From Acidobacteriota bacterium (lineage in GTDB: Bacteria; Acidobacteriota; Blastocatellia; Pyrinomonadales; Pyrinomonadaceae), in the NCBI GenBank assembly GCA_029777145.1, contig JAKOSS010000593.1, positions 1 through 6,506 of the forward strand: DNA of 6,506 nucleotides, written 5' to 3'. The translations under genes were made by a program, and so were the position numbers. The number at the start of each line of letters is the position of its first letter. Within the stretch, counting starts at the first letter, position 1. Positions 1 to 2,365 of this stretch are shown in pieces. The notes beneath the pieces are model-generated. The model saw only the letters and a program-made list of their open reading frames with translations, ran no database searches and was not told the origin of the DNA.

Positions 1-276
1 AATTCCGCTCTTGAACGGCGTCTTCACCGCCATCATTCCGCATCCGATATCGACCCCGACCGTCGCCGGGATGACCGCGTCGCGCGTCGCGACGACCGAA
101 CCGACCATCGATCCGATTCCGAGATGCGCGTCGGGCATCAGTGCCACGTGCTTGAAAAGGCACGGAAGACGTGAGACGTTGCGGAGCATGTTCTCTTCCT
201 CGAGCGACAGGCCGTGGCTTACCCACGAGAGGATGTCGGCCTTCGCGCCCGAGACGTTGAGTTTGTTGAAAGTCAT
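1..276 (-). CDS. rtcB: RNA-splicing ligase RtcB, N-terminal part (cut by window edge)
   Basis: This is the first 92 residues of RtcB, the GTP- and Mn-dependent ligase that joins 2',3'-cyclic-phosphate or 3'-phosphate RNA ends to 5'-OH ends in tRNA and rRNA repair. The signature is direct: MPDAHLGIG at residues 48-56, then VGSVVATRDAVIP, then VGVDIGCGMM at 73-82. Asp76 and Cys79 match the known metal ligands of the family (Asp75/Cys78 in the E. coli protein). The start is the ATG at 276-274, preceded by AAAGGA seven bases upstream on the minus strand. The reading frame stays open to base 1, so about three quarters of a normal-length protein (roughly 400-480 aa) lies outside the window. No archease or RtcA gene is visible here. 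Transcription probably enters through the long leader at 277-660, which looks regulated. Confidence 0.95.
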   Translation of the reverse strand, partial: MTFNKLNVSGAKADILSWVSHGLSLEEENMLRNVSRLPCLFKHVALMPDAHLGIGSMVGSVVATRDAVIPATVGVDIGCGMMAVKTPFKSGI

Positions 277-336
277 AACCAATCCTTTGATTTTGTCTGT
301 GGCCCTTCCGTTCGCCTGAAGCCTCGATTCCGACGC

Positions 337-390
337 AAAAAGGGAACGGCAGCCTGTTTCCCATGCTGGAGAACTCAAGCTGCCGCTCCC
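337..390 (-). terminator. Intrinsic terminator hairpin in the rtcB leader (possible attenuator)
   Basis: On the minus strand, arm 390-376 (GGGAGCGGCAGCTTG) pairs with arm 356-342 (CAGGCTGCCGTTCCC) over 15 bp with two G-U pairs and a 19-nt loop. Five Ts (341-337) follow directly. This is the form of a rho-independent terminator and sits about 60 bp before the rtcB start codon. It lies some 300 bp after the thiL stop, which is far for a thiL terminator. A termination signal inside the apparent rtcB leader suggests conditional read-through. The stem could instead be a dispersed palindromic repeat, because it shares GGGAGCGG/CCGCTCCC with the hairpin at 423-450. Confidence 0.6.
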
Positions 391-422
391 GATCGCGCCT
401 ATCGAACGCTTTCTCTATTTTC

Positions 423-450
423 CGGGAGCGGGCAACGCAAGCCGCTCCCG
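423..450 (-). promoter_or_regulatory. GC-rich hairpin able to compete with the downstream terminator
   Basis: CGGGAGCGG (450-442) and CCGCTCCCG (431-423), read on the minus strand, form a perfect 9-bp stem with a 10-nt loop. No T-run follows, so it is not itself a terminator. Its distal arm (431-423) is also perfectly complementary to bases 391-383, the proximal arm of the terminator at 337-390. Pairing of those two would break the terminator. The hairpin begins six bases after the stop codon of the small ORF at 456-587. It could also be one copy of a dispersed palindromic repeat family. Confidence 0.5.
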
Positions 451-455
451 CAATT

Positions 456-587
456 TCAATCCAATTTATCGAGTCCGCTGTTCGCGGATAATGTGCATCT
501 GAACGCACGATCTGACGATTCGGCGCGTTTCGGCACAAAGCCGCCTGCGCTCCGTTTGTCGTTGATGTGATATCGGTTCATCAGCAT
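456..587 (-). CDS. Possible 43-residue leader peptide or small protein
   Basis: A 43-codon minus-strand ORF starts at ATG 587-585 and stops at TGA 458-456. GAGG lies six bases before the ATG, a better ribosome binding site than several of the certain genes here have. The product starts MLMNRYHIND and ends ANSGLDKLD. It is hydrophilic and charged, with no membrane segment, no signal peptide and no family I recognise. Its stop falls six bases before the hairpin at 423-450, and a possible promoter lies just upstream, so a leader-peptide role for rtcB is plausible. There is no run of one amino-acid codon of the sort seen in amino-acid operon leaders. It may equally be a chance ORF; only the position and ribosome binding site support it. 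Confidence 0.35.
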   Translation of the reverse strand: MLMNRYHINDKRSAGGFVPKRAESSDRAFRCTLSANSGLDKLD

Positions 588-630
588 TCTTTACCTCGAT
601 CCTCGTTTCGCCACATTGAAGCGAACGAAG

Positions 631-660
631 TTTTTAGCATGGTCGGATTTCGGCTGTCAA
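631..660 (-). promoter_or_regulatory. Candidate sigma-70 promoter for the rtcB leader
   Basis: Read on the minus strand, a perfect TTGACA (660-655) is followed after 18 bp by TAAAAA (636-631), four of six matches to the -10 consensus. Transcription would begin near 624, between thiL and the small ORF at 587-456, giving an rtcB leader of about 350 nt. I see no convincing sigma-54 promoter (TGGCAC-N5-TTGC type), the kind used by E. coli rtcBA. Confidence 0.4.
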
Positions 661-689
661 GAAATTTTTTCGGCTCGAAATGTTGAACG

Positions 690-1622
690 TTAGAAGTGCC
701 GGAATGATTCGGGATTCAGCGGGAACGATCTGTTTCCGTCGGTAAGTTCCATTATTTCTTTATTTGCGGTGATGGTGCCGATGACCGAAACCTCGTCTTT
801 GAAACGCGCGACGGGGAAGTCAGGCGAAACCGAAAAAAGAAGTTCGAAGTCTTCGCCTCCGTCGAGAACGCACTTCAGGCGATCGTTCTTTTCCGAGAAA
901 ACGCGATCGACGACCGGATCGACCGGGATCGATCCGAGTTCGATCGACGCGCCGACGCGGCTCATATCGCAAATATGTTTGAGATCGCCCGAAAGGCCGT
1001 CGCTGAGATCGATCATCGCGGTGACGAGTCCGGTTTCGAACAGCCGCCGTCCGAGTTCGACACGGGGTTCGGGCGTTAGCAGCCGCGCCGCGAATTCAGC
1101 GCTCTCCCCGCGTTCGAGTGCGGCGAGACCGGCAGACGCTCCACCGAGCGAACCGCTGACGCAGATGAGATCGCCGGCGCGCGCTCCGGATCGCAGGATC
1201 GCGCGTCCGCGCCCGACCTCGCCGCCGACAAACGAATCGACGACGAACTTGTCAGGCGATCGCGAAATATCGCCGCCGGCGACTTCGACACCGAAGCGTT
1301 CCGCAACGGCGCAGTAGCCGTCGTAGAAACGCTTCGGGAAGTCGCTGTTCCAAAGCGATTCCGGGACGGCGATCGAAAGAAGCGACCATTTCGGAACGCC
1401 GCCCATCGCGGCGACGTCAGAAAGTGAAACCGCGAGCGCCTTGTGTCCGATCTGCTCGGGAGTTGCCCACCGGAGTCGAAAATCGACGTCCTCGACGAGC
1501 ATGTCGACGGTGACAACGAGGTCGTTTTCCGGGTCTTTCGGGAGCACCGCGCAATCGTCGCCGATCAGCGAAAAGTTACGGTAGTTTCTTAAGTTTCGGA
1601 GAAAGCCGAATTCGGTCTGCAT
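690..1622 (-). CDS. thiL: Thiamine-monophosphate kinase
   Basis: ThiL phosphorylates thiamine monophosphate with ATP to give thiamine diphosphate, the last step of cytoplasmic cofactor synthesis. The 310-residue length is typical. The family motifs run in order: GDDCAVL at 21-27, [11 protein letters not shown] at 38-48, [17 protein letters not shown] at 59-75, AGGDISRS at 115-122, [12 protein letters not shown] at 155-166, DLSDGL at 205-210 and DGGEDFELL at 254-262. Asp22/23, Asp40, Asp69 and Asp118 fall where the family binds Mg and nucleotide. The first half is the ATP-binding AIR-synthase-like domain and the second half its C-terminal partner. The start at 1622 has no clear Shine-Dalgarno sequence. 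A weak -10 (TATACA, 1650-1645) would give a leader of about 15 nt. No TPP riboswitch motif is visible in the 84 bp upstream, and no other thiamine gene is adjacent. Confidence 0.96.
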
Positions 1623-2291: not shown

Positions 2292-2365
2292 CGGGATGTA
2301 GCGCAGCCTGGTAGCGCGTTCGCTTGGGGTGCGAAAGGTCGTGAGTTCGAATCTCGCCATCCCGA
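2292..2365 (+). tRNA. tRNA-Pro (anticodon GGG)
   Basis: The acceptor stem CGGGATG (2292-2298) pairs with CATCCCG (2358-2364), giving the C1-G72 pair typical of bacterial tRNA-Pro, with discriminator A at 2365. The D arm contains GCGCAGCCTGGTAGCGC. The anticodon stem TTCGC/GCGAA encloses loop TTGGGGT, placing GGG at 2326-2328 with G37 after it. The T arm is GTGAG-TTCGAAT-CTCGC. CCA is not encoded, so it must be added after transcription. It reads CCC and CCU codons. Confidence 0.97.

Follow-up and report, generated by a model that had tools for sequence, protein, structure and literature searches.

The window analysed here is a 6,506-nucleotide stretch of contig JAKOSS010000593.1 from an Acidobacteriota bacterium. 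One end of it carries, on the minus strand, the start of rtcB, which encodes an RNA-repair ligase. Upstream of rtcB, in order of transcription, lie a promoter, a short leader open reading frame (ORF) and two hairpins:

655..660, minus strand: TTGACA, the -35 hexamer
631..636, minus strand: TAAAAA, a -10-like hexamer, separated from TTGACA by a spacer of 18
594..597, minus strand: GAGG, Shine-Dalgarno-like, 6 nt before the ATG at 587-585
456..587, minus strand: leader ORF, 43 codons plus TGA, with 18 of the 20 amino acids (no Gln or Trp)
442..450, minus strand: arm 1, the 5' arm of hairpin 1, beginning 5 nt past the stop codon
423..431, minus strand: arm 2, the 3' arm of hairpin 1
376..391, minus strand: arm 3, the 5' arm of hairpin 2, of which 383-391 can pair with arm 2 at 9 of 9 positions
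342..356, minus strand: arm 4, the 3' arm of hairpin 2, which is the terminator stem
337..341, minus strand: terminator T-run of five T
1..276, minus strand: first 92 codons of rtcB, which leaves the window (Pfam PF01139 RtcB, E = 8.3e-20)

The promoter hexamers, GAGG, the four arms and the T-run were read from the sequence, and the leader was taken from the ORF list. The original prediction had read a promoter, a 43-codon ORF, four arms, five T and rtcB as a leader-peptide attenuator; every part was found in its place, and the gap between leader stop codon and arm 1, given as six bases, is five. An independent arm listing returned the same pairings (1:2; 2:3 at 9/9; 3:4 over 15 nt at 87%), and minus-strand bases 330-460 fold with -64.7 kcal/mol (z = -4.9; none of 200 shuffles equally good). 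A simple promoter and terminator scan of the window returned neither the leader promoter nor its terminator; its rules exclude both (T at -10 position 6; loop of 3-8 bases). An Rfam search of window positions 280-700 for a T-box or other leader RNA gave no matches at E up to 1, the leader ORF had no Pfam match and no homologue in the protein database, no rtcR was present among the eight window ORFs run against Pfam, and no plasmid match was found for positions 200-700. Elsewhere in the window, a tRNA gene (2292-2365, plus strand) lies downstream of a gene for a MerR-type regulator; it corresponds to tRNA-Pro(GGG) in the relative L001 and is also found near thiL in L118-L120, apart from the element.

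Scanning genome contigs for rtcB returned the best 80 loci, among which L001-L014 were 77-98% identical over the rtcB match and came from genomes labelled Acidobacteria, Acidobacteriota or Pyrinomonadaceae. Pyrinomonadaceae belong to the class Blastocatellia, which we take to be the class of the window and of the genomes searched. No relatives were found in genome contigs through ThiL. The nearest locus, L001 (Acidobacteriota MAG USDE_metabat.86_sub), shares 80% nucleotide identity with nearly the whole window and keeps the attenuator layout before rtcB, contrary to the absence in close relatives that the original prediction had named as grounds for giving it up. Both leaders have 43 codons without indels and differ by 18 non-synonymous and 3 synonymous codons; they show no third-position excess, whereas nearly all differences in the first 92 codons of rtcB fall at third positions. 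The comparison indicates that the leader frame is kept and the window's peptide is not conserved.

A second ground for abandoning the idea, many copies of the hairpins elsewhere in the genome, also failed where it could be tested. The stem pattern GGGAGCGG...CCGCTCCC occurred at two places in the 4.8-Mb genome of L001 (reversed control, 0), the second of which comprised TTGACA, an ORF, a stop codon, two hairpins and a T-run, followed by a tRNA-Pro gene. Both places are in the attenuator layout, and a dispersed repeat was rejected. Searching 119 genomes of the taxonomic family with a directional hairpin-1 pattern gave 8 sites, spread over 7 genomes (control, 0), and each of these sites, like the window, had an ORF stop 2-3 nt before TGCGGGAGCGG.

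A covariance model, R1, built from five copies matched 82 of 162 genomes of the relative's class at E up to 0.1, under stricter filters that possibly lost weak matches. Of 104 matches listed, 88 were fetched, and six of these without the hairpin layout (L222, L223, L227-L230) were dropped by eye; L223, L228 and L230 are false matches to the model, belonging to a dispersed inverted repeat with GGGAGCGGTAGCGAC. The 16 unfetched matches comprised eight opposite-strand shadows of fetched ones and eight weak, uninspected matches (E 0.0066-0.069). The resulting 83 copies are 82 in 76 of the 162 genomes plus the window. The genomes surveyed are mostly drafts, and relatedness inflates the counts below, an effect partly corrected by a subset of 46 leaders that are pairwise under 45% identical. 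A search of 396 genomes sampled from the phylum gave a match at E up to 0.01 in 26 genomes, 22 of them class members and 4 others; in those four, the 180 nt at the hits (L240-L243, L246) lacked the attenuator layout, an absence that is weak given the strict filters. All searches over more than 40 genomes used stricter filters and scored few candidates per genome, which makes absence weak evidence. The L244 match was the dispersed repeat already dropped.

Across the 83 copies, arms 1 and 2 pair in 704 of 741 cells, with the outermost pair formed in only 47 of 77, and arms 3 and 4 pair in 881 of 912. The stem of hairpin 1 is nearly invariant except for that outermost pair, and the upper stem of hairpin 2 varies freely; the conservation of hairpin 1 is partly ascertainment, since the model was built on copies picked up by exact match to hairpin 1 or by BLAST with the window. 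Arms 2 and 3 could pair in 541 of 645 cells, and at the seven core pairs in 525 of 566. The covariation anticipated for the arms appeared as many compensatory changes in the upper part of 3:4 and was not seen row-wise between arms 2 and 3 (506 of 2000 permutations reached the observed value), which is attributable to hairpin 1 barely varying. At least five T follow within 10 nt of hairpin 2 in 80 of 82 copies. The element has the mutually exclusive 1:2, 2:3 and 3:4 hairpins and the intrinsic terminator of an attenuator.

The end of the leader is constant in position. Every one of the 83 copies has an in-frame stop that ends 4-6 nt short of hairpin 1 and closes an open frame of at least 44 codons; model R1 spans the stop position (trained on TGA and TAA only) and not the upstream frame. 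TGA is used in 32 copies, TAA in 29 and TAG in 22, and this use of three different stop codons indicates that the function is kept and not the letters. Leader starts were picked by start codon, ribosome site and promoter distance, without use of amino-acid content. The first choice gave lengths of 34-105 codons (median 54), and refinement by promoter distance gave 38-93; amino-acid and codon counts use the refined starts unless stated otherwise. In 71 of 83 leaders a TTGAC[AT] precedes the chosen start by 20-150 nt. Judged by sequence only, the copies have the translatable leader and promoter of a ribosome-mediated attenuator.

The genes behind the element are related in kind. At least five tRNA genes (within 7 kb), RtcB or Ro60 lie downstream in 72 of 83 copies; a looser count, in which one tRNA is enough and TROVE-like genes are included, gives 80, and the other three have under 1.4 kb of sequence. 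The 11 copies outside the strict count are six with at most 1.4 kb of sequence plus L116, L117, L118, L208 and L214. Downstream sequence reaches 8 kb or more in 41 copies. The strict count takes in 39 of them; within the 41, at least 5 tRNAs follow in 34 and at least 15 in 25, RtcB in 19 and Ro60 in 13, with a TROVE-like gene and no Ro60 in 4 more. The longest array has 40 tRNAs (L210), and a full operon (L119) has 12 tRNAs, a small protein, YrlA RNA, Ro60 (vWA/TROVE) and RtcB. In genome G034, 16 of the 25 array anticodons recur among 38 tRNAs elsewhere (two tRNAs near rtcB were excluded from both sets), which makes the array a second set at least in part; nine array anticodons (including Tyr, Asn and both Ile) were not found elsewhere, perhaps through incomplete assembly. 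YrlA Y-RNA matches above the Rfam gathering score lie at L009:5516-5646 and L119:5310-5436, beside rtcB or Ro60, in Acidobacteriota. Apparent permuted tRNA genes upstream of rtcB in L009 were rejected, the Rfam YrlA match lying within 500 nt of rtcB.

Several other features of these loci were recorded. A family of proteins of about 115 amino acids containing '...VIAIVEDT...', without a significant Pfam match, is encoded inside these operons (L119:4075-4419, plus strand; L114:1989-2348, minus strand), with tblastn matches after 14 of the 41 long-flank elements and, by reading, a relative directly upstream of rtcB in L012. In L116 and L117 the element is followed by a 66-aa protein that looks ubiquitin-like (by reading, with no Pfam match), tRNA-Pro and a large gene labelled TROVE-like by reading and unsupported by Pfam, adjoining a Pfam-supported ThiF gene; both genomes carry second elements (L191, L187). 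The element at 7094-7219 in L118 (genome G048) has neither a tRNA array nor rtcB in the 8.8 kb behind it, and Phe, Trp and Tyr are missing from its leader; a neighbour resembles, by reading, the gene after rtcB in G083. L118 looks like an orphan left after operon loss.

The leaders sample the amino acids far more completely than expected. All 20 occur in 54 of 83 leaders, against 7.3 expected from draws on the pooled composition (maximum 16 in 1000), and the mean number of distinct residues is 19.41, against 17.77 +/- 0.13. The excess persists in the 46 leaders pairwise under 45% identity (all 20 in 26, against 4.5; mean 19.24, against 17.81 +/- 0.18) and with the first starts, for which the mean of 19.36 compares with 17.8 under a base-composition null, 16.9 in windows of long ORFs, and 17.0 and 17.1 in the other two reading frames. 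Residues present as a single copy are Trp in 65 of 83 leaders, Tyr in 65, Cys in 56 and His in 50, far more evenly than by chance; 13 leaders have no Trp and 5 have two. Each of the 33 leaders that are 52-54 codons long carries a single Trp, which sits at position 5 in 14 of them, at position 27 in 12 and at other positions in 7; within this set Trp thus moves but is neither lost nor doubled. Protein-database homologues to two leaders (41, trimmed to the last 54 residues, with two already among the 83 removed) showed the same: all 20 amino acids in 35 of 39 and one Trp in 39 of 39. The 39 fall into two groups and are not mutually independent, and two of them share the same core.

Sampling is also related to what the operon makes. 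In the 68 of 83 copies that could be compared (15 with short flanks were omitted), leaders preceding 15 or more tRNAs average 19.64 distinct residues, and 30 of 39 have all 20; the figures are 19.5 and 11 of 16 for those before 5-14 tRNAs, and 18.54 and 4 of 13 for those before at most 4. Leader codons relate to the operon's product, as in an attenuator, and sampling is weaker in reduced operons. With 18 of 20 amino acids, no Gln or Trp and no tRNA before rtcB, the window leader belongs with the kind preceding at most 4 tRNAs, and the window copy is a reduced member of the family.

Sampling extends below the amino acid. We compared the leaders with a null in which amino acids were fixed and synonyms drawn from pooled leader usage. 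Third-base groups number 34.35 per leader, against 32.34 +/- 0.20, and codon boxes 22.96 of 24, against 22.51 +/- 0.08, with all 24 present in 48 of 83 leaders. Ile is encoded both by ATA and by ATT or ATC (ATY) in 63 leaders, where 47.5 would be expected. Codons little used in long ORFs of the same loci are enriched in leaders (ATA, 0.36 versus 0.11; AGA, 0.22 versus 0.06; TTA, 0.19 versus 0.07). Isoacceptor boxes are over-sampled in the leaders.

We modelled the switch by folding RNAs that begin at the start codon and end within hairpin 2, either free or with a ribosome positioned on the leader. L205 is outside the fold counts (n = 82), as is L209, with a 1-nt linker in that fold, where n = 81. 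The probability of 2:3 pairing was 0.28 without a ribosome, 0.33, 0.32 and 0.37 with stalls 25, 50 and 75% along the leader, and 0.33-0.45 with stalls 8 to 2 codons before the stop (somewhat raised, 0.40-0.45, at 3-8). It reached 0.79-0.80 with the ribosome at the last or stop codon, exceeding 0.5 in 78-79 of 82 copies. With the ribosome at the stop codon, shuffling arm 3 lowered it from 0.81 to 0.46; 25 of 82 transcripts cut inside hairpin 2 favoured 2:3 without any ribosome. Stalls at regulatory codons, which free arm 2 in trp-type leaders, had no strong effect of this sort here, where the response is strong only at the last or stop codon. A rough kinetic simulation with assumed rates covered 162 settings: stalling reduced 2:3 pairing in 147 of them, made little difference in 15 and increased it in none. 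A search in the ribosome folding for an arm 0 upstream gave no clear sign. The predicted response runs against the original prediction, in which a ribosome stalled late in the leader would let 2:3 form and give read-through, for earlier stalls yield only 0.32-0.45. Of that attenuator reading, the translation-linked layout stands, kept in 82 further copies including that of L001, and the sign finds no support. The corollary that translation damage induces repair is opposite to the predicted geometry, unless an unseen element reverses the sign.

We propose that the element probably belongs to a family of ribosome-mediated attenuators that sample the whole tRNA pool and turn the operon on when all tRNAs are charged. 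A ribosome would translate the leader while RNA polymerase runs ahead. With every aminoacyl-tRNA present, it would reach the stop codon by hairpin 1 and mask arm 1; arm 2 would then pair with arm 3, blocking the terminator, and the operon (spare tRNA array, Ro60 and Y RNA, and rtcB; in the window, rtcB alone) would be read. Were any tRNA missing or uncharged, the ribosome would halt early, hairpin 1 and then the terminator would form, and the operon would be off. Because the sampled codons lie anywhere in the leader, what is read out should be the ribosome's arrival, by which arm 1 is masked; this anatomy predicts an AND gate. The anatomy, the constant stop position, the one-of-each content and the downstream genes can be read off the copies, and from these we infer co-transcriptional switching and its sign. 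For the sensor itself our confidence is good: leaders that read nearly the whole code once, minor isoacceptor boxes included, quite likely serve as an aminoacyl-tRNA checkpoint, whether as an AND gate or as a detector of damage to any tRNA. Against the proposal as a whole, an off-switch on tRNA shortage would be an odd fit for an RNA-repair operon, and the window leader lacks Trp and Gln and encodes a peptide unconserved relative to L001.

The same sensor may work with the opposite sign, a stall at any sampled codon, its tRNA cleaved or uncharged, inducing the spare tRNAs and repair genes. Such an arrangement would make biological sense, and classical attenuator leaders sense by stalling. Translation inhibitors are reported to induce both rtcB and the trn operon in Anabaena (PMC10272220), and damaged tRNAs to regulate an RNA repair operon under RtcR control (PMC7790460). 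On account of these precedents we are less sure of the sign than of the sensor. Induction by stalling would nevertheless need a feature unseen in the copies, for example a leader segment that sequesters arm 1 as long as no ribosome has arrived at the stop codon, or slow stop-codon release under stress. The folding argues against it, with 2:3 hardly raised over its ribosome-free value by stalls a quarter, half or three quarters along the leader (0.33, 0.32 and 0.37 versus 0.28), as does the absence of any increase across the 162 kinetic settings under assumed rates. We regard the opposite sign as possible but rather unlikely.

The remaining explanations do without the sensor. A trans-acting factor that binds hairpin 1 and sets termination, with translation merely clearing the leader, would suit a near-invariant hairpin-1 stem beside an upper hairpin 2 free to vary, but that invariance is partly ascertainment, and the fixed stop position and one-of-each leaders would go unexplained; we consider it improbable. 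The one-of-each content also bears on whether the leader is a real small protein with a job of its own and the hairpins its terminator, as a protein would have no need of exactly one Trp at shifting positions. Some members do share residues, as the 41 database homologues to two leaders attest, but the 46 leaders pairwise under 45% identity have widely different sequences and the window peptide has neither a homologue nor a synonymous excess, which makes this account very improbable. It is scarcely credible that an ordinary thiL terminator or a dispersed hairpin repeat lies next to rtcB by chance. The intergenic hairpin does sit downstream of thiL, and dispersed GGGAGCGGTAGCGAC repeats exist in some genomes (L223, L228, L230). 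However, the patterns occur at just two places in 4.8 Mb and 8 sites in 119 genomes, with reversed controls at 0; the element has its own promoter and ORF; the layout recurs without an upstream thiL match (for example, in L114-L117); and in many genomes leader and hairpins stay matched to each other ahead of genes of related function.

If the proposed sampling attenuator is correct, a one-of-each leader would be a sensor for the entire tRNA pool, its evenness visible for Trp, Tyr, Cys, His and the minor boxes, and the family would reveal how a second set of tRNAs is controlled in a bacterium jointly with RtcB and Ro60. It also makes testable which signal switches RNA repair on or off where RtcR is not in control, and a suitable test follows from the sequences themselves, as a lone Trp codon is found in most leaders. 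The copy in the window would show the fate of the sensor without a tRNA array.

Leaders of the trp, his and ilv type carry repeated codons of one or a few amino acids, and their stall site overlaps arm 1; to our knowledge, known attenuators sense one or a few amino acids. The present family resembles them in its leader ORF and ribosome site, its exclusive 1:2, 2:3 and 3:4 pairings, its terminator before the genes and its codons matched to what the operon supplies. It differs in carrying each rare amino acid roughly once, at positions that are free, and in a stop codon that precedes arm 1, so that arrival, not a stall, would mask arm 1. In pyrBI-type attenuation, a ribosome close behind RNA polymerase prevents termination, and polymerase speed reports nucleotide supply; ribosome arrival is likewise predicted to give read-through here, whereas pyrBI senses nucleotides and samples no amino acids. 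Ribosome-mediated attenuation is already known, and the universal sampling leader is, as far as could be seen, new: among the open-licence PMC papers listed we found no recognisable report of a leader with all 20 amino acids before rtcB or tRNA arrays. The Anabaena trn operon is similar in that one control governs both its large additional tRNA array and rtcB, with a link to translation stress (PMC10272220). According to that report, the two are co-regulated and induced by translation inhibitors or stress, the tRNAs lie on a plasmid and rtcB on the chromosome, and control is exerted by the DNA-binding repressor TrcR, in contrast to the attenuator layout here; terms beginning 'attenuat' and 'terminator' are absent from its main text (PMC10272220). 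The RtcR/sigma-54 RNA repair operons rsr-yrlBA-rtcBA, as described in PMC7790460, join rtcB with Ro60 and Y RNA, and the present family shares these components, with Ro60 (vWA/TROVE) in L119 and YrlA matches in L009 and L119. Those operons rely on an activator protein, unlike the present family, which has a TTGACA-type promoter and a proposed attenuator.
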